A stretch of 30,742 bases of DNA from positions 1-30,742 of IMG/VR virus record IMGVR_UViG_3300048107_000004; one strand, written 5' to 3'. This DNA comes from a virus. Positions 10,345 to 25,687 of the stretch are shown in pieces (within the stretch, counting starts at the first letter, position 1; the number at the start of each line of letters is the position of its first letter). The translations under genes were made by a program, and so were the position numbers. Under the pieces are notes generated by a model. That model ran no database searches. It was not told the DNA's origin and worked only from the letters and a program-made list of their open reading frames with translations.

Positions 10345-10635
10345 ATGCAGACCCCTAGACTTAGACCAAAAAACTTAGGCAAGAAGAAAAAATCTTCGAA
10401 TAAACCTAAACTTCGCCCAGCAGGTTTGGGTGCTACTAAAGAAGAGATGGACGCAATGGACCGAGGTTTCCGTATTCAAAAGATGGAAGGCCGCGAGAGG
10501 GAAGACGTTAAGAAGAAGGCTTACGGTGGCAAAGTCAAGAAGATGGCTCCGGGTGGCAAACTAATGACGGCTTCCGGCGGTCAATGCCGTGGTATGGGAG
10601 CTGCTACTCGTGGTGGCGGTTATAAGGCGGGGTAA
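10345..10635 (+). CDS. Small basic protein with MAPGG motif
   Basis: A 96-residue basic protein. I place the start at the ATG at 10345, 1 base after the previous stop, because GGAGA (10335-10339) sits at proper distance; an in-frame ATG at 10333 inside the previous gene is less likely. The N-terminus contains two related phrases, RLRPKNLGKKKK and KLRPAGLGATKE. The C-terminus is Gly-rich, with AYGGKVKKMAPGGKLM and CRGMGAATRGGGYKAG. The MAPGGK phrase recurs in internal virion proteins at the right of the window. Function unknown. Confidence 0.6.
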   Translation: MQTPRLRPKNLGKKKKSSNKPKLRPAGLGATKEEMDAMDRGFRIQKMEGREREDVKKKAYGGKVKKMAPGGKLMTASGGQCRGMGAATRGGGYKAG

Positions 10636-10641
10636 GTTCTA

Positions 10642-11277
10642 ATGAACTACACAGAGCTGGTTGCAGCGATAAAAGATTATACACAGAATGAGGAGACGAG
10701 CTTCGTCTCTAACATTCCTACGTTCGTTAGGCAGTCAGAAGAACGCCTTAACCGATCTATTATGGTACCTGAACTACGTAAAAATGTTACGGGACTTACT
10801 TCTAATGGCAGTGTATATTTAGGCCGACCAGATGATTTTCTCTCTGTGTTTTCTTTAGCTGTTATAGATTCGTCTGGGGATTATTCGTTCCTTATAGACA
10901 AAGACGTTAACTTTATTCGTGAAGCCTACCCTTCAGCGAGTACTTCTGCATTACCAAAATACTACGCTCAGTTTGACGGAGACTACGAGGGGGAGCAAGG
11001 TAACTTTATTCTTGGCCCAACACCTGACGACACCTACACAGTTGAGCTACATTACTACTACGACCCGGCTTCAATCGTTGCTGCAGGGACATCTTGGTAT
11101 GGCGACAACGCCGAATCCGCTTTGCTTTATGGTTCTTTGATTGAGGCGTACACATACATGAAGGGTGAGGCCGACCTCATCCAACTATACACTACTCGTT
11201 ACGACGAAGCTCTTGGGCAGCTTACCGGGGTTCAAATACGTAGCTCGACAGACGAGTACAGAGATGGGAGACTTTGA
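10642..11277 (+). CDS. Head-tail adaptor-like protein 2 (SU10 adaptor type)
   Basis: A 211-residue protein that resembles the SU10-type adaptor family of podophages. NYTELVAAIKDYTQNEE at the N-terminus, then FVRQSEERLNRSIMVPELRK and VYLGRPDDFLSVFSLAV, are characteristic: helix, helix, then strands. KYYAQFDGDYEGEQGNFILG follows, then TVELHYYYDPASI and a helical C-terminus. It would sit between portal and nozzle. Having two adaptor-like genes fits a short tail with stacked rings. The stop overlaps the following ATG (TGATG). Confidence 0.8.
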   Translation: MNYTELVAAIKDYTQNEETSFVSNIPTFVRQSEERLNRSIMVPELRKNVTGLTSNGSVYLGRPDDFLSVFSLAVIDSSGDYSFLIDKDVNFIREAYPSASTSALPKYYAQFDGDYEGEQGNFILGPTPDDTYTVELHYYYDPASIVAAGTSWYGDNAESALLYGSLIEAYTYMKGEADLIQLYTTRYDEALGQLTGVQIRSSTDEYRDGRL

Positions 11278-11564
11278 TGCAAGTTGAAATGGATTTTGGC
11301 TTTGACGCCATAAAAGTACATACCGCTAACAAAGGAGGGCACAGTCCTGATTCTGTAGCGGAAATGTGTGTAGACAAGCTAATGAGTGTGTCTACTTCTG
11401 CCCCGCCCGAGATACGAATGCAAGCAGAAGCGTATAAATCGCAGATGTTGCAAATTATCGCGCATTATATTAAAGTAGCGGTTAAGGAAGACCGCGCAAC
11501 AACGTGCGTAAAACTACAAGAGGCTGGGTTTCCTGACCTCGCAAATCAACTTAGGAGACTTTAA
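11277..11564 (+). CDS. Hypothetical 95-residue protein
   Basis: I start this at ATG 11277, overlapping the adaptor stop (TGATG), with GGGAG at 11267-11271 as ribosome-binding site. A TTG one codon earlier is possible but unnecessary. The protein looks helical (SVAEMCVDKLMSVSTS, then EIRMQAEAYKSQMLQIIAHY) with a C-terminal LQEAGFPDLANQLRRL. It has two Cys and no membrane helix. I do not recognise the family. The location suggests a tail-completion or assembly protein. Confidence 0.65.
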   Translation: MQVEMDFGFDAIKVHTANKGGHSPDSVAEMCVDKLMSVSTSAPPEIRMQAEAYKSQMLQIIAHYIKVAVKEDRATTCVKLQEAGFPDLANQLRRL

Positions 11565-12002
11565 ATGGCCTTTTCAGGTAACTTCATGTGTACATCGTTC
11601 AAGAAAGAACTTCTTCAAGGTAAACACAACTTCACTGCTTCTTCAGGCAATACATTCAAACTTGCTCTATATACAAATAGCGCATCGTTCAACGCGACTA
11701 CTACTGCGTATACTTCTGCAAACGAAGTATCTAACTCAGGTTCGTACAGCGCTGGTGGGGGTACACTTACAAACGTGACACCGACATCTTCAGGGACAAC
11801 AGGGTTAACAGACTTTGCTGACCTTGCGTTTACATCTGCTACGATTACAGCACGGGGCGCGTTAATATATAACGACACTGCCGCAGGTGATCCAACAGTT
11901 GCAGTGTTGGACTTCGGTGCAGACAAAACTTCGACTACTGGTACATTTACTATTCAGTTCCCAACAGCGGACGCTTCGAACGCTATTATTCGAATCGCTT
12001 AA
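11565..12002 (+). CDS. Beta-rich tail structural protein
   Basis: A 145-residue Thr/Ser/Ala/Gly-rich protein. The N-terminus has CTSFKKELLQGKHNFTASSG, then NTFKLALYTNSASFNATTTAY and EVSNSGSYSAGGGTLTNVTP, followed by regular strands to the end (GTFTIQFPTADASNAIIRIA). The FKLALYTNSA phrase is seen in phage structural proteins located before fibre genes, from memory. It is probably a tail or fibre-base protein. AGGAGAC at 11551-11557 gives a good ribosome-binding site. The S74 fibre gene follows after 18 bases. Confidence 0.65.
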   Translation: MAFSGNFMCTSFKKELLQGKHNFTASSGNTFKLALYTNSASFNATTTAYTSANEVSNSGSYSAGGGTLTNVTPTSSGTTGLTDFADLAFTSATITARGALIYNDTAAGDPTVAVLDFGADKTSTTGTFTIQFPTADASNAIIRIA

Positions 12003-12020
12003 AAATAAAGGGGTTGCCCT

Positions 12021-14192
12021 ATGGCCTTAATCGTCGCTGATCGCGTACAAGAAACCACTAACTCTACGGGGACTGGGGCTTATACTCTGGGAGGCGCGGT
12101 TCCGGGCTTTCAAACATTTTCTTCCGAGGTATCTAACGCTGACACTGTCTATTACTCGGTAACGGATAATGCGGATTTCGAGGTTGGCCTTGGAACTTAT
12201 GCGTCTAGTGGGGGGACTATTACCCGCACGACGGTATTTACATCGTCTAACTCCAACAACGCTGTTAACTGGGGTATAGGAACAAAGAATATATTCCTGA
12301 CCTACCCAGCAGATAAGGCTGTAGTTGAGGATGCGAGTAATAATGTAGCCATTGGTAACAACTTAGTTGTGGGCGGCACAGTTGACGGGCGTGATGTAGC
12401 CGCTGACGGAACTAAGTTAGACTTTGTTACGGTTACACAAGCGGTCGATCTTGACCAAATGGAAACTGATATTGCCGCACTTGAAAACGGTATGGTCTAT
12501 AAAGGTGATTGGAACGCAGGTTCAGGTAGTTTCCCCGGTGGTGGCTCTGCTCAAACAGGCTGGTTCTATTACGTTTCAGGGGCGGGTACGGTTAATGGTA
12601 TATCGTTTGTAGTGGGGGACAACATCGTTGCTACTACAGACAATGCGTCTACTTCTACTTATGCAAATAATTGGTCAAAACACGATCAGACAGACGCCGT
12701 ACAAGCTGTTGTGGGTTTAACTGGGTCTGTATCAAAAAGCGGACTGTTATCTGCACTAAACGTAGAAGATGGCGCGAACGTAACAGATGCGGCTAACGTA
12801 AACCCGCTAGTGGATTCACATGTAAATGTCAGTAGTGCGGGCAGTGGGCAGTATCTTGGTTGGAACGGTAGTGATTACGCTTGGTCAACTGTAGATTTAT
12901 CCACTAAGTTGAACTTGTCTGGTGGTACTATGTCGGGTGATATAGATGGCAACGGCAACAAGATGCTATTCGCTAACATGTATTCAAACCTAGTTAACTT
13001 GCCAAGTGCTACTACTTATCACGGTATGTTTGCTCACGTCCATGCAACAGGAAAAGCCTACTTCGCACACTCTGGTGCATGGGTTCCGTTAGCTAATGAA
13101 TCAACCACCTTGGCACTATCTGGTGGTGCAATGACAGGTCCGATTACTACCAACAGCACCTTCGATGGTCGAGATGTAGCTACAGACGGCACAAAACTTG
13201 ATGGCATAGAGTCCGGTGCAGATCAGACAGACACCGCCAACGTTACTGCCGCAGGAGCCTTGATGGATTCTGAAGTAGATGGTGATATTAAGACTTTGTC
13301 GTTACCGGCTAATACAACTATCAGTGCATTTGGTAAAACGCTAGTTGACGATGCCGACGCTGCTACAGCTAGATCAACATTAGGTTTAGGCACAGCCGCT
13401 ACCACTGCAAGCTCCGCATATGCTACAGCGGGACAAGGAACTAAGGCTGACGCTGCTTTACCTAAAGCTGGCGGGGCTATGACAGGTGCTATCACAACTA
13501 ACTCAACCTTTGACGGACGTGACGTAGCTGCAGACGGCTCTAAGTTAGATGGTATTGAGACCGGAGCTACAGCGGATCAGACAATCACTGCAGGTTCTGG
13601 GTTATCAGGCGGCGGCACTGGCAATGTAACACTAAGCCACTCTGACACTTCCTCACAAAGCAGTGTTAACAACTCCGGTGCTACAGTCATCCAAGACGTT
13701 ACGCTTGATACATATGGGCATGTTACAGGGCTTGGCTCTCACACCCTGACTTTAGCTAACTTAGGCTATACTGGTGCAACAAACGCTAACTATATTACAA
13801 ACAATAACCAGCTTACTAACGGTTCTGGGTACACAACGTACACCTCTAATCAGGCTACGAACACAAATAGCACGGTAACGTTTACTACGGTTAACGCGGG
13901 TACAATTAATACCACTTCAGACGAACGTGCTAAAGACGACATAACGCCGATCACTGATGCTTTGGATAAGGTTCAACAGCTGGGTGGGTATTCATTTACT
14001 CTTAAAGCAACTGACGAGAAGTCTTCAGGTGTTATAGCTCAAGAGGTACAAAAAGTTATGCCAGAGCTAGTTCAAGAAGGTGCTGAAGGGCTCCTATCTG
14101 TACAGTACGGCAACATGGTTGGTTTGTTAATCGAAGCAATCAAAGAACAACAGGCTCAGATTGACGAGCTAAAACAAAAACTTAACGGCTAA
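12021..14192 (+). CDS. Tail fibre with C-terminal S74 self-cleaving chaperone
   Basis: A 723-residue fibre for host recognition. Residues 1-105 form a virion-proximal domain (ALIVADRVQETTNSTGTGAY). The shaft contains the phrase TFDGRDVAxDGxKLDGIExGA twice, as part of longer repeats near residues 368-403 and 484-520, plus a related VDGRDVAADGTKLDF near 122. The last ~91 residues are a peptidase S74 intramolecular chaperone: SDERAKDDI contains the Ser633/Lys638 dyad, followed by GVIAQEVQKVMPELV and a C-terminal coiled coil (IEAIKEQQAQIDELKQKL). In this family the chaperone trimerises the shaft and then cuts itself off just before the Ser. It is well preserved here, so the fibre is likely functional. 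Confidence 0.9.
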   Translation: MALIVADRVQETTNSTGTGAYTLGGAVPGFQTFSSEVSNADTVYYSVTDNADFEVGLGTYASSGGTITRTTVFTSSNSNNAVNWGIGTKNIFLTYPADKAVVEDASNNVAIGNNLVVGGTVDGRDVAADGTKLDFVTVTQAVDLDQMETDIAALENGMVYKGDWNAGSGSFPGGGSAQTGWFYYVSGAGTVNGISFVVGDNIVATTDNASTSTYANNWSKHDQTDAVQAVVGLTGSVSKSGLLSALNVEDGANVTDAANVNPLVDSHVNVSSAGSGQYLGWNGSDYAWSTVDLSTKLNLSGGTMSGDIDGNGNKMLFANMYSNLVNLPSATTYHGMFAHVHATGKAYFAHSGAWVPLANESTTLALSGGAMTGPITTNSTFDGRDVATDGTKLDGIESGADQTDTANVTAAGALMDSEVDGDIKTLSLPANTTISAFGKTLVDDADAATARSTLGLGTAATTASSAYATAGQGTKADAALPKAGGAMTGAITTNSTFDGRDVAADGSKLDGIETGATADQTITAGSGLSGGGTGNVTLSHSDTSSQSSVNNSGATVIQDVTLDTYGHVTGLGSHTLTLANLGYTGATNANYITNNNQLTNGSGYTTYTSNQATNTNSTVTFTTVNAGTINTTSDERAKDDITPITDALDKVQQLGGYSFTLKATDEKSSGVIAQEVQKVMPELVQEGAEGLLSVQYGNMVGLLIEAIKEQQAQIDELKQKLNG
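13122..13580 (+). repeat. Duplicated shaft module in the S74 fibre gene
   Basis: Two related segments (about 13122-13230 and 13470-13580) encode the phrase GGAMTGxITTNSTFDGRDVA and its continuation to GADQT/TADQT. Synonymous differences are frequent, so the duplication is old. A partial third copy lies at about 12375-12425. Confidence 0.7.
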
Positions 14193-14210
14193 TAGTAAAG
14201 GAAAACGAAG

Positions 14211-15416
14211 ATGGCTATAAAAGTAAATAATACTACTGTTATTAACGATAGTAGGGCTTTACAGAATATTTCGTCTGTTGATTCAGCTACAGTGACAGCT
14301 TTGAACAACGCCGGTGTTGGAGGTTCTTCTTATGCTAATAAAACCGCTAACTATACTGCTTCGGCGGGGGATTTATTGACAGCTAACACCACTGGCGGAG
14401 CTTTTACCATAACACTGCCTTCAAATCCTTCGGCGGGCGATTCAGTAGGTATAATAGATGTTAATAGGTCTTGGGTGACCAACAGTTTAACTGTAGCTGC
14501 TAGTGGCAAAACGATTACAGACGAGAGAGGAATTACAGCGTCTAATAGTACAGCTTTCAACCAATCTAAAGCGCTTGAATTTATATATAGAGCAGACGGA
14601 GCATGGTACTTTAAACAAACTGTCTCGGGCGAGTTCCCCTCACTGTTGTTTATACCTAGTGATTGGACTTCACCAGATGTAACACTAACAGGATCGGGGA
14701 CATGGAACGCCCCAGCTAGTTGGAGAGAAGAAGACATTATAGTTATGTATCTTACATGCGGGGGTTCCAAAGCGGCGGCCTTTATATACTCAGGACAAAG
14801 TTGGCAGCCGGGAGGGACTGGTGGTTCAGCCAGATTCTTTATCGGTAATGTTTCAGATTTTGACGGAGCTGCTTATGTTTGTGGTAGTGGAGCCACTTCG
14901 ACCAGCTGGAATAGGCAACCTTTACAGAACGATCAAGAAACGAAGATAACGGACAATTTAGGCGTTAATACATACAGCGCATTAGTTACAGGGTCTGAAA
15001 GCGTCGGTACATACACTAATATAGGACAGATCGTCTCTACGACAAACTTTACTGCGACCAGCGCTTCAGCGGTACAGGACTCTTATATGTCATATACACA
15101 GTCTACAGTTAACCCTATAAACACGGGTACAGTAAGTTTAAGTGTAACGTTCGGTAATAGAGACCACGACAGCTCTGGCCAAAACCCCGGGGTAGTAGGA
15201 CCTAGTATATTTAGTGGCGGGAATGGTAGAAGTACTGGATTTGGTGAAACATCTGCAGCGGGATCGGTAAGTCTTTATTCTGGAAACGGGGGCGCCAGTT
15301 TTGGCGCAAATGGAACTTATCCGGGCGGCGCCGGAGGCGGCCCAACCAGCTACTCTGGAACCACTGGGGGTACTAGCGCCGCAGGTAATATTCGAATTTA
15401 TAGACAGCCGCAGTAA
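14211..15416 (+). CDS. Second tail fibre/adhesin, glycine-rich tip
   Basis: A 401-residue fibre-like protein. The N-terminus (AIKVNNTTVINDSRALQNIS) is a common phage-fibre attachment phrase. Residues ~45-150 resemble a beta-structured domain that ends fibres (AGDLLTANTTGGAFTITLPS, then FIYRADGAWYFKQTVSG). The C-terminal ~90 residues are rich in Gly, Ser and Asn (SGGNGRSTGFGETSAAG and repeated GGxG segments), recalling the polyglycine-loop specificity domains of T4-like gp38 adhesins. Such tips determine receptor binding and vary rapidly. A receptor-binding role is inferred. It is followed directly by a tail-assembly-chaperone-like gene. Confidence 0.78.
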   Translation: MAIKVNNTTVINDSRALQNISSVDSATVTALNNAGVGGSSYANKTANYTASAGDLLTANTTGGAFTITLPSNPSAGDSVGIIDVNRSWVTNSLTVAASGKTITDERGITASNSTAFNQSKALEFIYRADGAWYFKQTVSGEFPSLLFIPSDWTSPDVTLTGSGTWNAPASWREEDIIVMYLTCGGSKAAAFIYSGQSWQPGGTGGSARFFIGNVSDFDGAAYVCGSGATSTSWNRQPLQNDQETKITDNLGVNTYSALVTGSESVGTYTNIGQIVSTTNFTATSASAVQDSYMSYTQSTVNPINTGTVSLSVTFGNRDHDSSGQNPGVVGPSIFSGGNGRSTGFGETSAAGSVSLYSGNGGASFGANGTYPGGAGGGPTSYSGTTGGTSAAGNIRIYRQPQ

Positions 15417-15430
15417 TAGGGAGATAGAAA

Positions 15431-15703
15431 ATGAGCGACTTTGACAATGTTTGGAACCTCACTGAAACAGAGATTAACAATCTTACCGCACAGTTTCGTG
15501 TTAATAGAAATAATATGCTGAAAAAAACAGATGCGATTATCATGCCTGATAGAAACCCTGATGAGCGATGGAATCAGTTCCGTCAAAAACTAAGGGATAT
15601 ACCCCAAAACCAACTTAATTTCCTTAATGGCCTAGATGATGATTATTTCACAGAGTGGGAGTGGGAAAAATGGATGCTCCTTGGCGCGGGGATGATGGAT
15701 TGA
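15431..15703 (+). CDS. Phage tail assembly chaperone-like protein (APC family)
   Basis: A 90-residue protein. RVNRNNMLKKTDAIIMPDR and then ERWNQFRQKLRDIPQNQ match the pattern of the phage tail assembly chaperone family often found after fibre genes (Phage_tail_APC type: R...L..TD...D.....W..[YF]RQ.LRDIP). The C-terminus is acidic and Trp-rich (DDYFTEWEWEKWMLLG). In related phages such proteins assist folding or attachment of fibres; the exact job is poorly known. GGGAG at 15419-15423 is the ribosome-binding site. Its stop codon TGA overlaps the TTG start that I assign to the halogenase, so the two are likely translated together. Confidence 0.75.
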   Translation: MSDFDNVWNLTETEINNLTAQFRVNRNNMLKKTDAIIMPDRNPDERWNQFRQKLRDIPQNQLNFLNGLDDDYFTEWEWEKWMLLGAGMMD

Positions 15704-16860
15704 AGGTTGCTATAATAGGTAAAGGTACAGCGGGATGTATGACAGCCGCGCACTGCAAAAGATGGATAAATGCGGACGAAATAGAGTGGTACTTTGACCC
15801 TTCTATAAAACCGCAGGCTGTAGGCGAAGGGTCAACTTTAAATCTACCTAATAGGCTTAACGATTCTTTAAACTTTTCGCCAAGACATTTTGATTCTGTA
15901 GGCGCGACTGTAAAGACAGGTATCTATAAAGAAGGTTGGGGGAGTAAACGAAAGCCTTTTATCCATGACTTCCCGAGCCCTTCAACGGCTTTGCATTTTG
16001 ATGCAACTCTATTGCAGGGTTTTGTCTATGATAAGTTAAAAGATTCAGTGTCTATAAAAGAAGCTAACGTATCTTCAGATGACATAGATGCAGACTATAT
16101 TATTGACTGTTCTGGCAGACCTTCCTCTTTTGAAGACTTTGAGATGTCAAAGTATATTCCTGTAAACGCCGTACATGTAACACAGTGTTCTTGGGAATAT
16201 CCACGGTTTAGTGAGACATTAGCTATCGCAAGACCTTATGGTTGGGTGTTTGGTATACCCCTTAAAAACCGCTGCTCTGTAGGGTATATGTACAATAAAG
16301 ATATAAATACTTTAGAAGAAGTTAAAGCGGATGTAGAGGTTATATTAAACGAATATAACTTAGTGCCTAATGGGGATACTAACTCATTTAGCTTTTCTAA
16401 CTATAGGCGTAAGAGTAATTTTAAAGACAATATTGTGTATAACGGCAATGCTTCTTTCTTTTTAGAACCTCTTGAAGCTACTTCGTTCGCTACTGTAGAC
16501 AATGTTAATACTATGGCGGTTCAAAGATGGTTTGGGAATACTTCTTTAGAGCTATCGAACCTTAGATATCACGCTAATTTAGACGCCTGCGAAAACATTA
16601 TAATGTTGCACTACGCATCGGGGTCTTCTTTCAAAAGTGACTTTTGGTCCTACGCTAAAGAAAGAGGTATAAAATGTATGGAAAATGCAGACCCTAGCTT
16701 GGATTACATGATTAAAAACTCGAAAGAGCCTAGTAGTACAGGTTCGTATTCTGACGTATTTAAACTGCCCCCTGTTATGACCGAACATTTTGAAGCGTTG
16801 TATAAAAACTGGTGGGAGGGTTCGTTCTCTCAAAACACTAAAGGACTTGGATTAACATAA
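15700..16860 (+). CDS. Flavin-dependent halogenase (tryptophan halogenase-like)
   Basis: Expected to use reduced FAD, oxygen and a halide to make hypohalous acid that halogenates an electron-rich substrate. I choose TTG 15700, overlapping the upstream stop, because the N-terminus then starts KVAIIGKGTAG, the usual first strand and GxGxxG FAD loop (Gly7, 9, 12). In-frame GTG 15655 and ATG 15670 would add residues inside the previous gene. AVGEGSTLNLPN (40-51) fits the next FAD segment. Lys72 (GATVKTGIYKEGW) aligns with the catalytic Lys of PrnA/RebH, and Glu259 in LEPLEATS with their catalytic Glu. Deviations: the WxWxIP signature reads WVFGIP (182-187), and PLESTG reads PLEATS, changing a halide-site glycine. 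At 386 residues it is shorter than the 500-540 of bacterial tryptophan halogenases. Substrate unknown. Confidence 0.9.
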   Translation: MKVAIIGKGTAGCMTAAHCKRWINADEIEWYFDPSIKPQAVGEGSTLNLPNRLNDSLNFSPRHFDSVGATVKTGIYKEGWGSKRKPFIHDFPSPSTALHFDATLLQGFVYDKLKDSVSIKEANVSSDDIDADYIIDCSGRPSSFEDFEMSKYIPVNAVHVTQCSWEYPRFSETLAIARPYGWVFGIPLKNRCSVGYMYNKDINTLEEVKADVEVILNEYNLVPNGDTNSFSFSNYRRKSNFKDNIVYNGNASFFLEPLEATSFATVDNVNTMAVQRWFGNTSLELSNLRYHANLDACENIIMLHYASGSSFKSDFWSYAKERGIKCMENADPSLDYMIKNSKEPSSTGSYSDVFKLPPVMTEHFEALYKNWWEGSFSQNTKGLGLT

Positions 16861-16861
16861 C

Positions 16862-17497
16862 ATGTTAGGATTTTCCCCATATTCAGCTGCAGCCTTTTCC
16901 GATGTAGGTAGTGGGGAACAGCTATTTGTTGCTACAGGCGTTGTTAGTACTGGGGCTGTTGGTACGGTATCAGTTACGGGGAATCAGAGCGGGTTAACTC
17001 TTGGCTCAGTGCAAGGTTCTGCAACAATCGGTGGCGTGGCAGTAGACGCTGGCGGAACACCTGTAATCACATCTCCAAACGCTATGGTAAGTGGTCTAGG
17101 CACAGTTATAGCTTCTACAGACTTAGAGCTTACACTTACAGGCGTTGCGGCTACTGGGTCGCTGGGCACTGTTACTATAATAAACGCCTCGGTTATTAGC
17201 CCTACGGGACTTGCGGGTACTACGAATACCCCTAGTGTTTCTACTATCTCTAACGCTACATTCTCCGTAACCGGTGTAGCTGGAACTATGTCTGTGGGCA
17301 GCGCACAAGGCCAAGCAGGTGCAGGTGCGGATGTTACTGGAGTTTTAGCTACAGGTAGTGTAGGCTCTGTAACAACGACGGCCGCAGCATTGGTAACTAC
17401 TACTGGAGTATCAGCTACAGGAACCGTTGGACAAGCACTTGTATGGGGTAGGATTAAACCTGATCCCGGTACAATATGGACAAGAATAGCAGCGTAA
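16862..17497 (+). CDS. Repeat-rich tail/fibre structural protein
   Basis: A 211-residue protein built of degenerate repeats of the type TGVxATGSxGTV (for example TGVVSTGAVGTVSV, TGVAATGSLGTVTI, TGVLATGSVGSVTT, TGVSATGTVGQALV). Almost all residues are Gly, Thr, Val, Ala or Ser. Such repeats suggest an extended beta-helical or fibrous domain. The N-terminus (LGFSPYSAAAFSD) and C-terminus (RIKPDPGTIWTRIAA) differ from the repeats and may be attachment and capping parts. The position between halogenase and another fibre-type gene suggests a virion surface or tail part. Low complexity prevents a family call. Confidence 0.65.
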   Translation: MLGFSPYSAAAFSDVGSGEQLFVATGVVSTGAVGTVSVTGNQSGLTLGSVQGSATIGGVAVDAGGTPVITSPNAMVSGLGTVIASTDLELTLTGVAATGSLGTVTIINASVISPTGLAGTTNTPSVSTISNATFSVTGVAGTMSVGSAQGQAGAGADVTGVLATGSVGSVTTTAAALVTTTGVSATGTVGQALVWGRIKPDPGTIWTRIAA

Positions 17498-17506
17498 GGA
17501 TGAACA

Positions 17507-18295
17507 ATGCCTAGTACATACACAGACAACGGTGGCATTGAGCTTCCAGCCAGCGGAGAACAGTCCGCTACATGGGGCAACACCGTAAACGATAACATGA
17601 GCATTATAGACCGCTTAACAAACGGTGTCGGTGCTATTACTTTATCTGGTACAACACATACTCTAGCGATTAGTGACGGCGCTCTCTCGGATGGACAGTA
17701 TAAAACCCTCGTGCTTGGAGGGTCTCCTTCAGGTACCAATACGGTGACTGTATCCCCAAATAACGGACAACATATATACATTGTTAAGAACAATAGCGGC
17801 CAAACAGCTGTATTTACTCAAGGTTCTGGGGCAAATGTCAATGTATTAACAGGTACAACTAAGGTTATATACTGTGATGGGGCAGGTGCAGGTGCAGCTG
17901 TTGTAGATGTTACGGGCTCTTTGGACCTTGGCGCACTGATAGTAGGAGGCGTAACTGTCACTTCTACGGCGGCAGAACTCAATATACTAGACGGGGTCAC
18001 TGCAACTGCCGCAGAGTTAAACATAATGGATGGTGTTACAGCTACAGCAGCTGAAATTAACTACGTTGACGGGGTCACATCCAACGTACAAACACAACTT
18101 AACACTAAAGCACCCTCTTCAAACCCTACCCTTGGTGGTACTATCACAATAACAGGTGGCACACAAAGCTGGACAGTAACAGCGGCGGGAACAAATTTAA
18201 CCTTTGCTTATAACGGCACAAATGTTCTTCGTGTAGATAGCTCCGGCAACTTAATAGCATCGGGTGATATAACTACTAATGGAACTATTTCATAA
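17507..18295 (+). CDS. Tail fibre-like protein with AAELN repeats
   Basis: A 262-residue fibre-type protein. The N-terminal PSTYTDNGGIELPASGEQSA, followed by TWGNTVNDNMSIIDRL, is a common phage tail protein start. A strand-rich middle includes GQHIYIVKNNSGQTAVFTQG. Three tandem 13-residue units (TATAAELNILDGV and variants) at 17960-18076 continue into TSNVQTQLNTKAPSSNPTLG, a widespread shaft phrase of phage fibres. The C-terminus (GTNVLRVDSSGNLIASGDIT) looks like an end-cap strand. No chaperone or enzymatic domain is visible. It is probably a side fibre or a fibre linker. Confidence 0.78.
   Translation: MPSTYTDNGGIELPASGEQSATWGNTVNDNMSIIDRLTNGVGAITLSGTTHTLAISDGALSDGQYKTLVLGGSPSGTNTVTVSPNNGQHIYIVKNNSGQTAVFTQGSGANVNVLTGTTKVIYCDGAGAGAAVVDVTGSLDLGALIVGGVTVTSTAAELNILDGVTATAAELNIMDGVTATAAEINYVDGVTSNVQTQLNTKAPSSNPTLGGTITITGGTQSWTVTAAGTNLTFAYNGTNVLRVDSSGNLIASGDITTNGTIS
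17960..18076 (+). repeat. Three tandem 39-base repeats (TATAAELNIxDGV)
   Basis: Units at 17960-17998, 17999-18037 and 18038-18076 each encode 13 residues of the form T-A-T-A-A-E-[LI]-N-x-x-D-G-V. The DNA copies differ at many synonymous positions, so the protein repeat is old and maintained by selection. Confidence 0.85.
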
Positions 18296-18316
18296 CTATC
18301 TCGTTGGAGGTTTATA

Positions 18317-20173
18317 ATGCCACTACAAAAACTCCAGTTTCGCCCCGGGATTGTAAGGGATACAACTGATTACACTAACGAAGGCGGTTGGCGTGACGGG
18401 GATAAAATCCGTTTTCGTTTGGGTTTCCCCGAAACTATAGGTGGTTGGACTCAGTACACAAACTCAGTTATGCTTGGTATTTGCCGCGACCTGCATGCGT
18501 GGACTTCTTTGGCGGGTACAAGGTTTGTTTCAGCGGGTACTAATTTAAAACTATATGTTTTAGACGGCAATAGCCCTGTAGACATTACGCCTATCAGACA
18601 AACTACTTCTGCAGGGGATGTTACCTTTGCGGCTACAAATGGCTCTTCTACAATTACTGTTTCAGATGCAAGCAACGCCGTTTTTTTAAATGATTTCGTT
18701 ACGTTTTCCGGGGCTGCCAGCCTTGGGGGAGCTATAACCGCCGCAGTACTAAACAAAGAGTATCAGGTAACTTCTATTATAAATGCTAATTCCTACACTA
18801 TTACCGTTTCAGCTACGGCTAATTCTTCAGATACAGGGAATGGTGGGAGTTCCGTAGTAGGTGTTTACCAAATAAACACAGGATTAGAATCTCCCGCTAC
18901 TGGTAGTGGATGGGGTGCGGGCGTTTGGGGGCGTAGTACATGGAACTCTCCAGCCGACGTAACAATTCCGGGTGCGCAACTTCGTTTATGGTCTATGGAC
19001 AACTTCGGAGAAGATTTATTAGCAAATGTACGGGGCGGGGGTATTTATTATTGGGATACTTCTACAGGTACTTCTTCCCGTGCTGTAGATATAACTACTT
19101 TAAGTGGTAGCAATCAACCTCAAGTTGCTAATATTGTTCTTGTTTCTGAAAGAGATAGACACGTCATTGCATTTGGTTGTGACCCACAAGGTGATCCCGG
19201 AAACCTTGACCCTTTAACTATACGTTTTTCTGACCAAGAGAGTTTTACTGATTGGGCGGCAACGTCAACTAACACTGCTGGAGAGCTACGCATTGGTACC
19301 GGGTCTGAAATTATAGCTGCAGTACAAACAAAGCAACAAGTTATAATTTTTACAGATCGTTCCGTGTCTTCGATGCAATTTATTGGTGCTCCGTTTACTT
19401 TTGGCCTTACTGAAGTCTCCACAAACACGTCTATCGCAGGGCAAAACGCTGCTGTTGCTTTTGGAGATGCAGTGTATTGGATGGGCGATCAAGTATTTTA
19501 CAAGTATGACGGTAACGTACAACCTATACCATGCCCTATAGAAGAATATGTATTTGAAAACATGAACATTCCACAACGTTCTAAAGTCACTGCTGCAGCC
19601 AATAGTAAGTTTAATGAGATATGGTGGTTTTATCCTTCAGCTACTAGCCAAACAAACGATAGCTACGTTGTATTTAACTATGTAGAAAACAGTTGGTATT
19701 ACGGGACTCTACCCCGCACTGCGTGGTTCGATAATGCTGTTTCTAATTTACCTATCGCTGCTTCACCCGATGGGTACTTATATTTCCAAGAAAACGGTGT
19801 AGACGACGGAAGTACCAACCCACCTAGCCCGATAAGTAGCTACATAGAATCTAGTTCTATAGATATGGGTGACGGAGATCAATTTATGTTTATGTCAAGG
19901 GTTTTACCAGACCTGACATTCCGAAACTCCACGTCTACTCCACAGGCTACGTTTGAAGTAAGTGCGAGGGACTTCCCCGGAGCCAGCTTCGATCAGACAA
20001 ATTCTGGTAGCGCAGTACGTACATCAATAGCACCCGTCGAACAGTTTACGGAGCAGTTGTTCTTCCGGTTACGGGGCCGATCTATGGCCTTGAAAGTTTC
20101 CTCGAATACTCTTGGAACGCAGTGGAGACTTGGCACACCACGCGCAGATATGCGTACAGATGGGAGGCGGTAA
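18317..20173 (+). CDS. Tail nozzle/stabilisation-type protein (P22 gp10-like)
   Basis: A 618-residue protein, predicted mainly beta. The N-terminus (LQKLQFRPGIVRDTTDY, then GGWRDGDKIRFRLGFPETIGGW) is typical of podophage tail hub or stabilisation proteins that close the tail under the adaptors. Propeller-like features include repeated short strands (VFLVSERDRHVIAFGCDPQG-type segment near 270) and Trp/Tyr-containing phrases (DQVFYKYDGNVQPIPCPIEEYV, interrupted by turns). The middle insert of residues ~95-190 is Ser/Thr-rich. C-terminal FFRLRGRSMALKVSSNTLGT resembles the final strand set of this group. Size and position after the fibres fit a nozzle. The exact family name is inferred rather than proven. 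Confidence 0.75.
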   Translation: MPLQKLQFRPGIVRDTTDYTNEGGWRDGDKIRFRLGFPETIGGWTQYTNSVMLGICRDLHAWTSLAGTRFVSAGTNLKLYVLDGNSPVDITPIRQTTSAGDVTFAATNGSSTITVSDASNAVFLNDFVTFSGAASLGGAITAAVLNKEYQVTSIINANSYTITVSATANSSDTGNGGSSVVGVYQINTGLESPATGSGWGAGVWGRSTWNSPADVTIPGAQLRLWSMDNFGEDLLANVRGGGIYYWDTSTGTSSRAVDITTLSGSNQPQVANIVLVSERDRHVIAFGCDPQGDPGNLDPLTIRFSDQESFTDWAATSTNTAGELRIGTGSEIIAAVQTKQQVIIFTDRSVSSMQFIGAPFTFGLTEVSTNTSIAGQNAAVAFGDAVYWMGDQVFYKYDGNVQPIPCPIEEYVFENMNIPQRSKVTAAANSKFNEIWWFYPSATSQTNDSYVVFNYVENSWYYGTLPRTAWFDNAVSNLPIAASPDGYLYFQENGVDDGSTNPPSPISSYIESSSIDMGDGDQFMFMSRVLPDLTFRNSTSTPQATFEVSARDFPGASFDQTNSGSAVRTSIAPVEQFTEQLFFRLRGRSMALKVSSNTLGTQWRLGTPRADMRTDGRR

Positions 20174-20504: not shown

Positions 20505-20740
20505 TGGAGATGGCTGCAATTTGGAATATTGGCTTAACCGCAGGGGGCGGTTTTTTGGTGTGGTGGATTAAATCCCACCATGAAGAAGTCAAGCGGGTAA
20601 CTATCCTACTTAACAGAACTCGAGAAGAACTAGCTAAAGAGTACGTCACTAAGTACGACTCTAACCAAGTGCTTGGTCAAATAATGAGTAAATTTGACAA
20701 GATAGAAGAAAAGCTAGACAGACTGGTGGAAAGAAAATGA
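20504..20740 (+). CDS. Small membrane protein with C-terminal coiled coil
   Basis: A 78-residue protein starting at GTG 20504 (overlapping the upstream TAG) or ATG 20510; GGCGGGGGC about 9 bases upstream favours the GTG. Residues ~4-24 (AAIWNIGLTAGGGFLVWWIK) form one membrane helix. The rest is a charged coiled coil (KSHHEEVKRVTILLNRTREE, then FDKIEEKLDRLVERK). One N-terminal helix with a long coiled coil is the layout of an i-spanin or of a small accessory holin protein. It lies 3.5 kb before the obvious holin, so the role is uncertain. Its stop overlaps the next ATG. Confidence 0.65.
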   Translation: MEMAAIWNIGLTAGGGFLVWWIKSHHEEVKRVTILLNRTREELAKEYVTKYDSNQVLGQIMSKFDKIEEKLDRLVERK

Positions 20741-21303
20741 AACGTTTATTTATAGCGATACTCTTCTTTGTTGCAGGTCTTGCTATAGGTAACGTTGTCC
20801 CTGCTAACGAAGACGACACAATTAAGTCGGAAAGCACAGTCACTTCTAGCGGCACGATGGACACTACAATTAATAGTCCACCACCTTCTGCTATATCACC
20901 CCAGATTAGCGCAAGTAACTCTGACTTATGTACTGTAGGCGTTGCTGGTGCTGTGCAAACACAAATACTAGGTATATCCGCAGGTAGAACTGTACGGGAT
21001 ATGAACTGTGAAAAGTTAAAGAACGCCAAAACCATGTATGATATGGGTATGAAAGTGGCAGCGGTATCTGTAATGTGCCAAGATTCTCGCGTGTTTGAAG
21101 CCATGCTCAACGCGGGGACGCCCTGCCCCAAGGATGGGTTGGTGGGGGATAAAGCTAGGCTAGCATGGGAAATGGAAGCTGTTGAGCAAACTATTCAACG
21201 CGAACAGAACAACCCAATGAGAAAGATTTTCAATGAAAACGTTGAAACAAAAACAGGTCTTAGTGTTATTATTAGCACTTTGGCCTTCTTACTCTTCTTG
21301 TGA
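20737..21303 (+). CDS. Exported protein 1 with C-terminal membrane helix
   Basis: A 188-residue protein. KRLFIAILFFVAGLAIGNVVP at the N-terminus is a signal peptide or anchor. A Ser/Thr/Pro linker (TTINSPPPSAISPQISAS) leads to a domain with four Cys (SDLCTV, MNCEKL, VMCQD, TPCPKD), suitable for two disulfides in an oxidising compartment. TGLSVIISTLAFLLFL at the end is a second hydrophobic helix. Similar proteins with SPPPxAxxP followed by CxxxxxGA occur in marine phages, from memory, without known function. The 3' end overlaps the next gene by 71 bases in another frame. It could be a periplasmic or virion membrane-interacting protein. Confidence 0.7.
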   Translation: MKRLFIAILFFVAGLAIGNVVPANEDDTIKSESTVTSSGTMDTTINSPPPSAISPQISASNSDLCTVGVAGAVQTQILGISAGRTVRDMNCEKLKNAKTMYDMGMKVAAVSVMCQDSRVFEAMLNAGTPCPKDGLVGDKARLAWEMEAVEQTIQREQNNPMRKIFNENVETKTGLSVIISTLAFLLFL

Positions 21304-22105
21304 CCCCTATAGCTACGGGGCAACAGGGAACGCGGCGTCCACAGCACTGAGCTGGAGCATGGGTTCCGTTTTACCGGATATTCCCGGGATTGATATCAAT
21401 GGTCTCCTGTATAGATATACCACTGTGAAGAACCCTGAAGATGATATGAAAGTCCACGTTGGCAACAAGAATGTTGATGGCGGTGGCTATATCTTTCGAA
21501 AAACAGACGATTGGTCAGGAGTTCCCGGTAACACTATCGTTAGATCATTTCCTTTATCGAATATTCCAGCTCCCCAATGGGGTACGGGTTCGATTGACAT
21601 TGAAGGGGAAGGTACGGTCGAAGATGCTATGGTTATATATAGCTATAGAATAGACGAATGTTACGACGAACAATCTAACCCTGCATGTCCGGGATATGTC
21701 AAACCTATACCTGTAATACCCGTAGTTGAGCTGTATGATGTACTAGAAGATGAAGATGCTATGGCTGCTATAGACGCGGATACAGACTTTCAGTATGATG
21801 AAGATGGCAATCTGATACTTTCTGAAGAAGAGGAAGAGGAAGAGAATAGGATTGAAATGGGTTTGACTGCATCTGCCAATGCACTGACCCTGTTTAAGAC
21901 ACAAGGACAAGATGACATTATTATGGCTATTAACCAACAGACTAATATAGCTATGTACTACAATGCGTCTATCAATGGAGGCGTGTATGCTGACGCCCCC
22001 GGTCTTGCTGATTCAGAGATAGCTGACAACAAGAAAGCCTTGCGTAATAACTTAGCACAACAGATTCTGCACGAACAAATGGTCGATATGCAGTATAACA
22101 AATGA
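21233..22105 (+). CDS. Exported protein 2, acidic
   Basis: A 290-residue protein. MKTLKQKQVLVLLLALWPSY, followed by SSCDP, is a clear signal peptide; the Cys might be a lipoprotein site, but Tyr at -3 is poor for a lipobox. The mature part has a beta-type domain (LLYRYTTVKNPEDDMKVHVG, GYIFRKTDDWSGVPGNTI, then WGTGSIDIEGEGTVEDAMV) and ECYDEQSNPACPG with two Cys. A very acidic loop (SEEEEEEENR) is followed by a helical C-terminus. The start lies inside the preceding gene. I associate similar proteins with marine phages, but no function is known to me. Possible virion or periplasmic component. Confidence 0.7.
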   Translation: MKTLKQKQVLVLLLALWPSYSSCDPYSYGATGNAASTALSWSMGSVLPDIPGIDINGLLYRYTTVKNPEDDMKVHVGNKNVDGGGYIFRKTDDWSGVPGNTIVRSFPLSNIPAPQWGTGSIDIEGEGTVEDAMVIYSYRIDECYDEQSNPACPGYVKPIPVIPVVELYDVLEDEDAMAAIDADTDFQYDEDGNLILSEEEEEEENRIEMGLTASANALTLFKTQGQDDIIMAINQQTNIAMYYNASINGGVYADAPGLADSEIADNKKALRNNLAQQILHEQMVDMQYNK

Positions 22106-22113
22106 GGTTTAAT

Positions 22114-22602
22114 ATGAAATATTCTATTGCGATACTTTCGCTATTCGCGTTTCCTGCATTAGCTAACGTCGAGATCACAGGTAGCGTAGAAGCTAAATGT
22201 GTTATTCAAACAACTAAAGCAGGGGCGTACGGCAACCCTATTGCTAGTAAGTTAAGCACTACCCCTGCAGACGGAGGTGTCCTACCTATAATGAGGTATG
22301 ACGTTTCAATAGCAGATGCTTATATAGCTAGTATAACACACCCAACAGCTTTTAGCTCATCGCCTTCCTTATCTGACACAGTTGCATGGACAGGTAGCAC
22401 AAGCGTTACACAAACGTCTGTCTCTGGGATGTCAGCCTACGAAGCCGCTAAGACAGTTGTGGGAAACACTACAAACTTCAACTTAACACTAGCAGGATCG
22501 ACGTGGTTCTCTACTGCTTCTAGTGCTACGTATGGTTCAGCTAAACCCTTACCCGGTGGCAATTACACGGCAGTAGTGCAGGCAAGTTGCATTGCTAAGT
22601 AG
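22114..22602 (+). CDS. Exported protein 3, pilin-like
   Basis: A 162-residue protein. Start ATG 22114 is chosen over 22102 because GAGG (22104-22107) lies 6 bases before it and the signal peptide then starts properly: MKYSIAILSLFAFPALA with cleavage before NVEITGS. The mature protein is nearly all beta with one Cys near each end (EAKCVIQ and QASCIAK), likely joined. This layout, a C near the first strand and a final GGNYTAVVQASC strand, recalls chaperone-usher-type or SCPU/spore-coat-U-like pilin subunits. Similar proteins occur in marine phages, as far as I recall. Resemblance is structural pattern only, so function is open. Confidence 0.65.
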   Translation: MKYSIAILSLFAFPALANVEITGSVEAKCVIQTTKAGAYGNPIASKLSTTPADGGVLPIMRYDVSIADAYIASITHPTAFSSSPSLSDTVAWTGSTSVTQTSVSGMSAYEAAKTVVGNTTNFNLTLAGSTWFSTASSATYGSAKPLPGGNYTAVVQASCIAK

Positions 22603-22978
22603 GATAACCATAGCCTTTTTGGTTTGGGGGACTTGTGCAATTCCGCATGAGATGACCCCCGCATACCCAGAAGTAAAGATGTCTCACGTCAAGGACGTGG
22701 TTAAGGTAGAGATGTCTCTCTTTAATTCAAGAGAAGAGATAAGGTATTACCAGATTGATTTGTTTGATTTAAACTGGATGAATATACCTTTTTCTACAAC
22801 GTATAGGATTATGAAAGTTGAGTACAAAGAGCATAAAGCTTTTGATGTCTACATAAGAAAAAGAGATATGCCCGAAGCTGTATACCTATGCACAACGTCA
22901 AAGGTAAGGAAGACTAACCAATCAAGAACTCTTATATCTTCTAGGATATGCTCAAGGTTAGATGGTGAACCTGCATGA
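22592..22978 (+). CDS. Exported protein 4, possible Ig-like fold
   Basis: A 128-residue protein. The best start is TTG 22592, 11 bases before the end of the upstream frame, because it completes a signal peptide (LSRITIAFLVWGTCA, then IPHEM). The mature part alternates hydrophobics as in a beta sandwich: VVKVEMSLFNSREEIRYYQI, DLNWMNIPFSTTYRIM, then KAFDVYIRKRDM and AVYLCTTSKV. Two Cys (YLCTT, SRICSR) could pair. The layout is loosely similar to the first domain of periplasmic pilus chaperones, but no chaperone signature residues are evident. Its stop overlaps the next ATG (ATGA). Function unknown. Confidence 0.6.
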   Translation: MLSRITIAFLVWGTCAIPHEMTPAYPEVKMSHVKDVVKVEMSLFNSREEIRYYQIDLFDLNWMNIPFSTTYRIMKVEYKEHKAFDVYIRKRDMPEAVYLCTTSKVRKTNQSRTLISSRICSRLDGEPA

Positions 22979-23373
22979 GATTAGTATTAGCTCTTTGCTT
23001 GTTATCTAGTTCTGCTGTAGCAGACAGTAGCTCTCTTTCTCTTGCGTTGCCGAGCCCTCCGATGAACTATCAATCGGATTCGTTTTCAACAGGTACTACA
23101 CGGTGCAGTAATGCTGTAGGTGGTGGTGTAAACTTAGAGTATGGCGTAACAGGTGTACTATCAGGGCTAAATACAGTGAGTAGAGGCAAGGACATAGGCG
23201 TGTACGCACGTATAGTCATACCCTTGGATAAACCCAAGGCTCGTATTAACTGCGACGACCTTTACCAAATAGAGTTAGCGCAACGTAGGCTAGAGATACA
23301 AAAGCTACGAGACGAGCTAGAAGCATTGAAAAACTTACAGAACGCCGGTGGAGAGATGGAGTTTGAGAACTAA
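22975..23373 (+). CDS. Exported protein 5 with C-terminal coiled coil
   Basis: A 132-residue protein. MRLVLALCLLSSSAVADS is a classic signal peptide with an AVA|D cleavage site. The mature N-terminus is Ser/Pro-rich (LALPSPPMNYQSDSFSTG). Two Cys follow (TTRCSN, ARINCDDL) around a beta-like Gly-rich section (GGGVNLEYGVTGVLSGLN). The last ~45 residues form a coiled coil (QRRLEIQKLRDELEALKNL). A periplasmic coiled-coil protein facing the membrane-anchored coiled-coil protein encoded next could form a complex across the periplasm. That is inference from paired architecture and a 1-base overlap. Confidence 0.68.
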   Translation: MRLVLALCLLSSSAVADSSSLSLALPSPPMNYQSDSFSTGTTRCSNAVGGGVNLEYGVTGVLSGLNTVSRGKDIGVYARIVIPLDKPKARINCDDLYQIELAQRRLEIQKLRDELEALKNLQNAGGEMEFEN

Positions 23374-23882
23374 TGGATACTACCAAGATAGCCGATAACA
23401 TTGATGGACTCGCAGATCGTGAGTTTAAGACCGGTGGCATGAAGATGTCGTTTGGTTCTATCATGGCTATACTTGCGTTCTTATCTACAGTGGTAGGTGG
23501 TCTGTACGGTGGGTTTGTTATGTACCAAAAGATCGAGGAGGTCGCAGGGCTAGACCTAGGTGCGTACCAACAAGCGATGGATGTCATGGATGCAAAAGTC
23601 ACGGGTATCGCTGATAAGGTAGAAGAATCTGTGGAGTACAGTCGTGATATCAAGAACGGCTTGAAGGATGATATACTACGCATAGAACAACAGACAGATC
23701 GTATAGAGGATATGGTGCGTAAATCTGAAGACAAGGTTCGTACTATGATTGATAACGCAGAAGTTCGCTTCGAAAATCAACGAGAACGTGTTAGAGTATC
23801 CCAAAGTGGCGATATGAAAGAGTTAGAAGATAAATTAATGGGCAAACTACAGCGGGCATTAGACAACCCCCTTGCAGATTAG
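23373..23882 (+). CDS. Membrane-anchored coiled-coil protein
   Basis: A 169-residue protein with a short N-terminal region, one membrane helix near residues 28-50 (IMAILAFLSTVVGGLYGGFV) and a long charged coiled coil to the end. It has segments such as AKVTGIADKVEESVEYSR and DILRIEQQTDRIEDMVRKSE, with no Cys. The membrane helix followed by a long coiled coil is reminiscent of i-spanins and of phage membrane scaffolds. It overlaps the upstream exported gene's stop by 1 base (TAATG), so the pair looks co-translated. An i-spanin-like role is possible given the nearby lysis genes, but spanins are usually smaller and no o-spanin lipobox is certain here. Confidence 0.68.
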   Translation: MDTTKIADNIDGLADREFKTGGMKMSFGSIMAILAFLSTVVGGLYGGFVMYQKIEEVAGLDLGAYQQAMDVMDAKVTGIADKVEESVEYSRDIKNGLKDDILRIEQQTDRIEDMVRKSEDKVRTMIDNAEVRFENQRERVRVSQSGDMKELEDKLMGKLQRALDNPLAD

Positions 23883-23891
23883 GAGATTATT

Positions 23892-24212
23892 ATGACAGAA
23901 TTTGACAAAGCCGATTTAGATGGTAGCGGTACAATAGACCAAGCCGAATGGGATAAATTAGCATTAGAAGACAAACGTCTTAAAATGGCTGATGAGGATG
24001 CTCAAAGAGATGCCCAAAGACAGATGGCATGGTTTGCATTATTCGGCATGTTGTTGTACCCTTTTGCAATAATTATTTGTAACTTGGCTAGTCTCGACGA
24101 AGCCATGAAGTCGCTAGCTTCTATCGCTGGTGTGTATTTTGTTTCTGTAGCTGCTATAGTTGCCGCATTTTATGGTAAAGAAGCCTACACAAAAGGGAAG
24201 GAAAATAACTAA
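23892..24212 (+). CDS. EF-hand protein with two membrane helices
   Basis: A 106-residue protein. Residues 8-19 (DLDGSGTIDQAE) form a complete EF-hand calcium loop: Asp8, Asp10, Ser12, Gly13, Ile15, Asp16 and Glu19 sit at the canonical positions (23913-23948). A charged helix (DKRLKMADEDAQRDAQRQ) leads to two membrane segments (WFALFGMLLYPFAIIICNLA and SIAGVYFVSVAAIVAAFYG). A single EF-hand on a two-helix membrane protein directly before a holin suggests a calcium-sensitive holin, antiholin or channel. This is inference; I know no characterised example. AGGAG at 23880-23884 is the ribosome-binding site, and the stop overlaps the holin start. Confidence 0.75.
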   Translation: MTEFDKADLDGSGTIDQAEWDKLALEDKRLKMADEDAQRDAQRQMAWFALFGMLLYPFAIIICNLASLDEAMKSLASIAGVYFVSVAAIVAAFYGKEAYTKGKENN

Positions 24213-24616
24213 TGATGAGTTTAGTAAGTAATTTGGTAGGGCCTGTCACTGGCCTACTAGACAAAGTTATTGAGGACAAAGATCAAAAGGCCAAGTTAGC
24301 CCATGAGATTGCCACAATGTCCGATAACCATGCCCAGCAAGCCTTAATGGGGCAGTTAGAGATAAACAAAGCCGAAGCTGCATCGGGTTCTTTGTTCAAA
24401 GGTGGGTGGCGACCATTCATAGGTTGGGTATGTGGCGTTGCTTTTGCCTACCATTTTGTGTTGCAACCTCTTATAGTCTTTGGTGTAACTGCTGCTGGAG
24501 TTGACATACCTGCGTTACCAGAGTTTGATATGGGTAGCTTGATGACTGTGATGATGGGAATGTTAGGATTGGGCGGACTCCGCAGCTACGAGAAGAAACA
24601 AGGAATTACAAAATGA
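24212..24616 (+). CDS. Holin, 3-TM (GTA holin family)
   Basis: A 134-residue protein expected to open the inner membrane for the endolysin. An amphipathic N-terminus (LVSNLVGPVTGLLDKVIEDK) precedes the family phrase SLFKGGWRPFIGWVCGVAFAY. Hydrophobic helices follow at about residues 68-85, 84-100 and 108-122 (LMTVMMGMLGLGGL), ending in SYEKKQG. GGWRPxxGWxC is the hallmark of the GTA_holin_3TM family. The start uses TAATGATG overlapping the EF-hand gene. The stop overlaps the endolysin ATG (ATGA), so holin and endolysin are coupled. ATG 24215 is an alternative start, which would allow a two-start holin as in lambda S, but this is unproven. Confidence 0.87.
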   Translation: MMSLVSNLVGPVTGLLDKVIEDKDQKAKLAHEIATMSDNHAQQALMGQLEINKAEAASGSLFKGGWRPFIGWVCGVAFAYHFVLQPLIVFGVTAAGVDIPALPEFDMGSLMTVMMGMLGLGGLRSYEKKQGITK

Positions 24617-25227
24617 GTGACTCTTTAAAACTACTGCAAGAGAAATGTGGGGTTACACCCGACGGAGGCTTCGGGCCAAATACAGCCCGTGCTATTGTAT
24701 CTCACTACGAGTTGTCTCCTGAACATGGGGCGCACTTACTGGGGCAAGCCGCGCACGAAAGCGGCGGCTTTAGACTTTGCCGAGAAAACTTAAACTACGG
24801 TTGGGAAGCTCTTATGAGAACTTGGCCTAGCAGGTTTACGGAAGAAGAAGCCAAAGAGTACGAAAGACAGCCTAGTAAGATTGCAGGGAAAGTATACTTA
24901 CGTAAATCACTTGGAAACCTCACGGAGCAAGATGCTAAAGATTTTATCGGTCGAGGATTTTTACAATTAACCGGTAAGGCAAATTACCGCTCTTTCTCTA
25001 GTGATATGGGTTTACCTGATGTAATGACTGACCCCGACCTAGCTGCTACAGACTATGCGTTTGAGACAGCGTTGTGGTTCTTTAAGAAGAACAAACTCTT
25101 TGATATCGCCGACGAAGGTGTAACCGAGGATGTAATCAAACGGATTACTAAGCGTGTTAATGGTGGGTATCATGGGTTAGACGACCGTATAGAGCAAACT
25201 AATAAGATACATGGGTGGTTAAGCTAG
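24613..25227 (+). CDS. Endolysin, GH19 (chitinase-like muramidase)
   Basis: A 204-residue lysis enzyme that cuts the peptidoglycan glycan backbone. HESGGFRLCRENLNYGW at residues 48-64 carries the GH19 catalytic pair (Glu49 in HE, Glu58 in EN). FIGRGFLQLTGKANY near 116-130 is the second signature (GRGxxQLTGxxNY). FETALWFFKKNKL and ITKRVNGGYHGLDDRI complete the domain. The first ~30 residues (LQEKCGVTPDGGFGPNTARA) look like a short peptidoglycan-binding or remnant segment. There is no signal peptide, so it depends on the adjacent holin, with which it overlaps (ATGA). The size fits phage GH19 endolysins. Confidence 0.93.
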   Translation: MSDSLKLLQEKCGVTPDGGFGPNTARAIVSHYELSPEHGAHLLGQAAHESGGFRLCRENLNYGWEALMRTWPSRFTEEEAKEYERQPSKIAGKVYLRKSLGNLTEQDAKDFIGRGFLQLTGKANYRSFSSDMGLPDVMTDPDLAATDYAFETALWFFKKNKLFDIADEGVTEDVIKRITKRVNGGYHGLDDRIEQTNKIHGWLS

Positions 25228-25228
25228 T

Positions 25229-25687
25229 ATGCCTATACGTCCTATAGAACCAAAAGATGTACCTGCGGCTATTGATCTTGGCTATCAGATGCACCAAGAA
25301 AGTGTTTATAGGCATTTTAACTACGACCCAGATAAGTGTGGTCGATTAATATATGACTTTATGACTAACCCAGACACACGTTTTGCATACATTGGCACTG
25401 CTAATGGCGTACCTAATAGTATTCTTCTTGGGTCTATAGGCGAACATTATTTCGGTACTGACTTGATAGCATCCGACACAGTGTGGTATGTGTCTACACA
25501 AAGTAGAGGTTCTCGCGTTGGACTGCAGTTGCTGAGAGCCTTTGAAAAATGGGCTAAAGAGCGTAAAGCCGCAGAGATATACATGGGTGTTTCTAGTGGT
25601 TTAAGTGCCGGTAAAACCGGTGCAATGTTACAAAAGTTAGGATATAATGTTGTGGGTGGAAATTATAAGCAACGTGTAGTAGAATAA
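25229..25687 (+). CDS. GNAT-family acetyltransferase
   Basis: A 152-residue GCN5-related N-acetyltransferase. IRPIEPKDVPAAIDLGYQMH is the typical first strand and helix. DTVWYVSTQSRGSRVGLQLL is motif A, with the acetyl-CoA pyrophosphate loop (QSRGSRVG). EIYMGVSSGLSAGKTGAML precedes the last helix, and LGYNVVGGNYKQRVVE is the usual end (LGY/F...). Acceptor unknown: it could modify a host protein, small molecule or virion protein. Such genes are common cargo in the structural region of marine phages. It starts 1 base after the endolysin stop and probably shares its transcript. Confidence 0.9.
   Translation: MPIRPIEPKDVPAAIDLGYQMHQESVYRHFNYDPDKCGRLIYDFMTNPDTRFAYIGTANGVPNSILLGSIGEHYFGTDLIASDTVWYVSTQSRGSRVGLQLLRAFEKWAKERKAAEIYMGVSSGLSAGKTGAMLQKLGYNVVGGNYKQRVVE

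Follow-up and report, generated by a model that had tools for sequence, protein, structure and literature searches.

A two-helix membrane protein with a conserved EF-hand loop in phage lysis cassettes

Genes of the lysis cassette

The analysed stretch, referred to here as the window, is a virus record of 30,742 bases (IMGVR_UViG_3300048107_000004). Four genes on the plus strand at 23373-25227 encode, in order, a protein with a single transmembrane (TM) segment and a coiled-coil-like region, a small EF-hand membrane protein that we call EF-TM, a PF11351 holin and a GH19 endolysin. The features are as follows.

23373..23882, plus strand: upstream single-TM protein with a long coiled-coil-like region; no family assigned
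23881..23885, plus strand: EF-TM ribosome-binding site AGGAG, six bases 5' of the ATG, by inspection
23892..24212, plus strand: EF-TM gene, 106 amino acids, EF-hand and two TM helices
23913..23948, plus strand: EF-hand loop, residues 8-19, DLDGSGTIDQAE
23940..24086, plus strand: single continuous helix, residues 17-65, EF exit helix into TM1, predicted by AlphaFold2
24024..24080, plus strand: TM1, residues 45-63, hydropathy scan and AlphaFold2 model
24114..24170, plus strand: TM2, residues 75-93, hydropathy scan and AlphaFold2 model
24212..24616, plus strand: holin, PF11351 GTA_holin_3TM / phrog_3427, Pfam and PHROGs matches
24613..25227, plus strand: endolysin, GH19 / phrog_181, Pfam and PHROGs matches

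The preliminary description had reported an EF-hand loop on a two-TM protein whose stop codon overlaps the holin start, and this was confirmed. The 106-residue reading frame ends with TAA at 24210-24212, and base 24212 is also the A of the holin ATG (TAATG); ATGA at 24613-24616 is likewise common to the holin end and the endolysin start. The protein encoded at 24212-24616 matched PF11351 with an E value of 1.2e-23 (84.4 bits, curated cut-off 24.8) and, in PHROGs, the 'holin' family phrog_3427, with a weak contact to phrog_2524. Its earlier designation as a 3-TM holin was borne out by the family match but not by a crude hydropathy scan, which gave one strong TM segment only. The same kind of scan revealed no strong hydrophobic segment, N-terminal signal or anchor in the GH19 endolysin. 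An endolysin without an export signal needs a holin to exit the cytoplasm, and the window enzyme would therefore require one. The 23373-23882 protein has, by eye, an i-spanin-like layout, and proteins of this type also precede EF-TM in many relatives.

Several neighbouring genes were recorded. Five consecutive small genes (20737-23373) lie before the cassette, mostly without known families; at least three have signal-peptide-like starts and the group looks like an exported set. A GNAT-type acetyltransferase (25229-25687; phrog_1249, 2.8e-28) directly follows the endolysin. The 15655-16860 protein resembles a flavin-dependent tryptophan halogenase, an enzyme that is also annotated in phage HTVC008M. 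No near-identical named phage was found for window positions 1-20000.

The EF-hand loop and the predicted membrane topology

The loop (D8-L-D10-G-S12-G-T-I-D16-Q-A-E19) has the canonical 12-residue form, with D8, D10, S12, D16 and E19 as ligands, glycine at loop positions 4 and 6 and isoleucine at position 8. Pfam EF-hand_5 matched the window protein at E = 2.9e-5 with 23.8 bits, below the curated cut-off of 25.9; in the PDB, a 13-member family profile hit the EF-hands of calmodulins with an E value of about 1e-8. Shuffling of the window protein yielded such a loop in 7 of 100,000 trials. Among the loci collected at that stage, all but one of 137 distinct complete relatives have the loop (136), and in the exception, L162, the residue at its first position is masked. 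In all 136, position 1 is D, position 12 is E, position 3 is D or N, position 5 is D, N, S or T and position 9 is D, S, T or E; the non-ligand positions 2, 7, 10 and 11 drift, with 11 to 13 different residues each. L216 and L233 had failed the stricter search pattern, which was then relaxed once to accept N at position 6.

Across 38 closely related nucleotide sequences, raw pN/pS was 0.06 at the ligand positions, 0.017 at G4, G6 and I8, 0.65 at the other loop positions and 0.21 for both the TM hairpin and the whole gene; the values are rough because pS is saturated at ligand sites. As a control against the loop being selected by the query itself, a query containing only the TM region was used, and the best 80 of its 593 relatives had an in-frame loop in 80 of 80 loci. 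By these sequence measures the EF-hand loop is real, under selection and no chance feature. The Pfam score below cut-off would suit a chance look-alike without metal binding, which the family-wide ligand conservation, the calmodulin profile match and the selection pattern make extremely improbable. The EF-hand very probably binds a divalent metal.

Like the EF-hand proteins of PF13202 and PF00036, EF-TM has the canonical loop and an exit helix. It differs from them in that the loop is unpaired (the listed proteins each have a single one), the entering helix is very short in the window member and the exit helix continues, by prediction, directly into a TM segment. A lone EF-hand is usually a weak calcium binder.

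The hydropathy scan marked residues 45-63 and residues 75-93 as hydrophobic segments. Charge bias predicted an N-in/C-in topology in 136 of 136 relatives, with a mean K+R count of 3.2 before TM1, 0.65 between the TM segments and 3.1 after them. The EF-hand loop is thus predicted on the cytoplasmic side, in agreement with the orientation considered in the preliminary description. AlphaFold2 placed a helix at residues 3-7, the loop, and helices at 17-65 and 69-105 (mean pLDDT 78.4, pTM 0.45), a model that contains the helix-loop-helix. Straight coupling of the EF loop to TM1 through one helix is only suggestive, given the low pTM and the pLDDT values of 61 and 67 for the first two ten-residue blocks. 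A structure search of BFVD returned one match at E <= 0.001 (A0A516M8G9, 49% identical), and a search of the PDB with the EF-TM model, in which one chain was compared, returned none.

Distribution, settings and slot exchange

At least 562 EF-TM relatives were found among viral-contig stretches, mostly in marine phages. Six loci in bacterial genomes are all in metagenome bins and are not clearly host genes. Tblastn with the window protein recovered 10 phage records, and this widespread family is still annotated 'hypothetical protein' in all 10; divergent members used as queries recovered further phage records. Freshwater and soil phages keep the loop as well, namely Limnohabitans phage DC31 from freshwater and Sinorhizobium phages phiM12 and phiN3 from soil. 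The loop therefore does not depend on a steep fall in calcium from sea to cell, which weakens the earlier rationale built on the high calcium of seawater. Persistence in soil and freshwater phages would fit a lysis protein whose EF-hand is purely structural, holding constant Ca2+ or Mg2+ that stabilises the fold or oligomer without sensing, and ligand conservation would be equally expected of such a protein. A cytosolic site, as predicted from the N-in topology, would however hold little calcium as long as the cell is intact, and we regard the structural role as unlikely.

Settings were counted over 50 clusters at 80% identity: 18 have a holin and a lysin nearby, four a holin only, seven a lysin without a recognised holin (the lysin match lying more than 1 kb upstream, and possibly unrelated, in four of the seven), nine lie in a T4 tail slot and 12 in neither a lysis nor a T4 tail setting. 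Eleven of the 50 representatives come from holin-query loci (L163-L240) and inflate the holin-plus-lysin and holin-only classes; without them the counts are 11/39 holin plus lysin, 7/39 lysin only, 9/39 T4 slot and 12/39 other. Three holin-like families (PF11351, phrog_2524, whose function is given as unknown in PHROGs, and phrog_6637) and three lysin types (GH19, GH108 and M15-type) stand beside EF-TM in these cassettes. Of the recurrent settings, lysis shows the greatest variety of partners, which supports a lysis role. EF-TM itself matched no described holin family beyond noise in PHROGs, Pfam or NCBIfam; weak NCBIfam matches, among them XopAW and a single Na/Pi symporter hit, were attributed to generic EF-loop similarity or to noise.

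The chief counter-evidence to a lysis role comes from the T4 tail slot, and the 12 clusters outside both settings also count against it. The order gp26, gp51, EF-TM, tape measure was found in phiM12 (EF-TM being gp121), phiN3, HTVC008M (EF-TM being gp021), Melnitz and further clusters (9/50), as would be expected of a tail-assembly or virion-associated membrane protein whose presence in lysis cassettes is secondary. The T4-type gp26, gp51 and tape measure genes, however, do not accompany EF-TM into lysis cassettes, and in phage Mosig the slot is held by an EF-less two-TM protein (Mosig_00135) of a family that otherwise adjoins phrog_2524-type genes and lysins in roseophages and HMO-2011. We consider a tail function improbable. 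The 12 clusters in neither setting would accord with a superinfection-exclusion or host-membrane protein that has no link to release, and small two-TM phage proteins of unknown function are common. The stop/start overlap with the holin and the repeated co-location with endolysins and spanin-like genes argue against that assignment, which we hold to be very improbable.

The preliminary description had proposed a survey of holin neighbours for EF-hands, and a search was also made from the holin side. By tblastn, the best 80 PF11351 loci comprise 48 with EF-TM, 16 with the EF-less two-TM protein in the same place upstream of the holin, none with both and 16 with neither, three of the latter having less than 200 bases of upstream sequence. 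Forty of the 48 EF-TM genes lie within 20 bases of the PF11351 holin. Locus L072 and phage CRP-13 have downstream phrog_2524 genes that are 87% identical, with EF-TM in the slot of the former and the EF-less protein in that of the latter. Two unrelated positions, upstream of the holin and in the T4-superfamily slot, hence take either protein, from which we infer that the two share one job. The EF-less protein resembles EF-TM in its slots and its two TM segments and differs in having no EF-hand. Since it fills the same slot without the loop, folding alone need not require the loop, a further point against a purely structural EF-hand, although the two families are not established as homologous: hhalign, run twice, gave E values of 0.029 and 0.014 with a probability below 4% (3% at 0.014).

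The EF-less family (phrog_10198-like) has 358 phage records, mostly from Vibrio phages, and its members are annotated 'hypothetical protein' or 'TMhelix' where inspected. They include KVP40.0094 (L242, 3965-4195), where a pair of annotated spanin genes is about 2.8 kb away, Mosig_00135 (L241, 3932-4204) and the HMO-2011 protein (L243, 2983-3171). This family is another candidate holin or holin partner.

Proposed role of EF-TM in lysis

The CRP phages bear on whether EF-TM is a holin. CRP-1 and CRP-9 have the order EF-TM, M15-type endolysin, u-spanin-like protein, and CRP-345 the order EF-TM, u-spanin-like protein, M15-type endolysin, with no recognised holin in either arrangement. The u-spanin-like proteins combine a lipobox, read by eye, with a TM segment, the layout given for u-spanins in the consulted part of PMC6139136; that of CRP-345 also matched an Rz-like spanin family weakly. 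PF11351 and phrog_2524 both gave no match in nine of 10 EF-TM phages searched (Melnitz, HTVC008M, CRP-207, CRP-345, DC31, phiM12, phiN3, CRP-9 and CRP-1; CRP-810 has PF11351), although the lack of these two families does not mean that every holin is absent. A search of eight phages with PF11031 (T4 t-holin) gave no match, the controls likewise giving none. The HTVC008M annotation names no holin product in 12,033-118,000 of its 147,284 bases. Another possible holin is CRP-345 gp02 (56 amino acids, two TM), which lies far from the cassette, and in CRP-1 a tail-anchored protein with one TM segment is encoded two genes upstream. Because EF-TM stands where a holin should be in the CRP-1, CRP-9 and CRP-345 cassettes, it may act as the holin in its own right, beyond any regulation of the gene that follows. 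It is also a candidate for the unnamed holin of HTVC008M and Melnitz. The recognised holin in the window, which would make a second one superfluous, counts against a holin role; PF11351 shares the operon and the start/stop overlap with EF-TM but is a separate gene and family.

Class II holins or pinholins of the phage 21 S type are small and have two TM helices with both ends inside. EF-TM is likewise small, with two TM segments, a predicted N-in/C-in topology and a basic C-terminal tail, and in CRP-1, CRP-9 and CRP-345 its gene has endolysin and spanin-like genes as neighbours. It differs in adding an EF-hand and in matching no holin family tested, and its hole formation is putative. The most likely reading is that EF-TM is a lysis protein resembling class II holins, itself a holin or the partner of one, and that it carries a calcium-binding module in the cytosol. 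Taken part by part, EF-TM probably acts in lysis and has a somewhat better than even prospect of being a holin or holin partner. The narrower statement that it is a lysis membrane protein whose EF-hand binds calcium, leaving gating aside, we place at even odds. Calcium gating of lysis is plausible, but we hold an effect of metal occupancy on lysis timing to be less likely than not.

On this reading EF-TM would sit in the inner membrane with both ends cytoplasmic, as a holin or as the partner of a PF11351 or phrog_2524-type neighbour. If gating exists, cytosolic calcium would be low and the loop empty in an intact infected cell. The first lesions, or a drop in membrane potential, would let calcium enter and fill the loop, and filling would pass through the exit helix into TM1 and shift hole formation. 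The sequence fits either a trigger or a brake. In the strongest form, a calcium-gated holin, the continuous EF-helix-TM1 would make hole formation all-or-none, because the first leak admits calcium that drives more holes, and EF-TM would be the missing holin of HTVC008M, Melnitz and phiM12-type phages; we think this rather doubtful. From the preliminary interpretation of EF-TM as a possible trigger or brake of lysis, the selected loop, the predicted topology and the lysis-cassette residence are retained; the seawater argument is not, and part of the family lies beside tail genes.

The preliminary description knew of no characterised calcium-gated phage holin, and likewise we found no calcium-gated or EF-hand holin in open-access full text, the subscription literature lying outside the search. 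In the consulted parts of the papers, 'holin' at a word start has no match in the Melnitz paper (PMC9004378) and 'holin' none in the pelagimyophage paper (PMC7029224). The CsgG curli pore, which is not an EF-hand protein, has been put forward as a pinholin analogue in Melnitz (PMC9004378, as far as consulted) and is thus also a proposed answer to lysis timing; EF-TM would be a second candidate in that genome. PMC6139136, in the part consulted, describes a holin's timing as dependent on its sequence and linked to the membrane potential; an ion-binding input, if true, would be a new control over this timing. EF-TM is a specific candidate, open to experimental test, for the means by which HTVC008M and Melnitz lyse cells.

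Two further observations concern membrane proteins in these phages. CRP-207 gp73 (L001, 3292-3873) is annotated 'putative lysozyme'; it matched no lysozyme family in PHROGs and looks like one TM segment plus a coiled coil. A tail-anchored protein of about 155 residues recurs (L075, 3325-3894; L257, 2254-2715; and upstream of the holin in L198 and L205); the L075 copy belongs to phrog_32327 and appears to be a further membrane protein of lysis cassettes.
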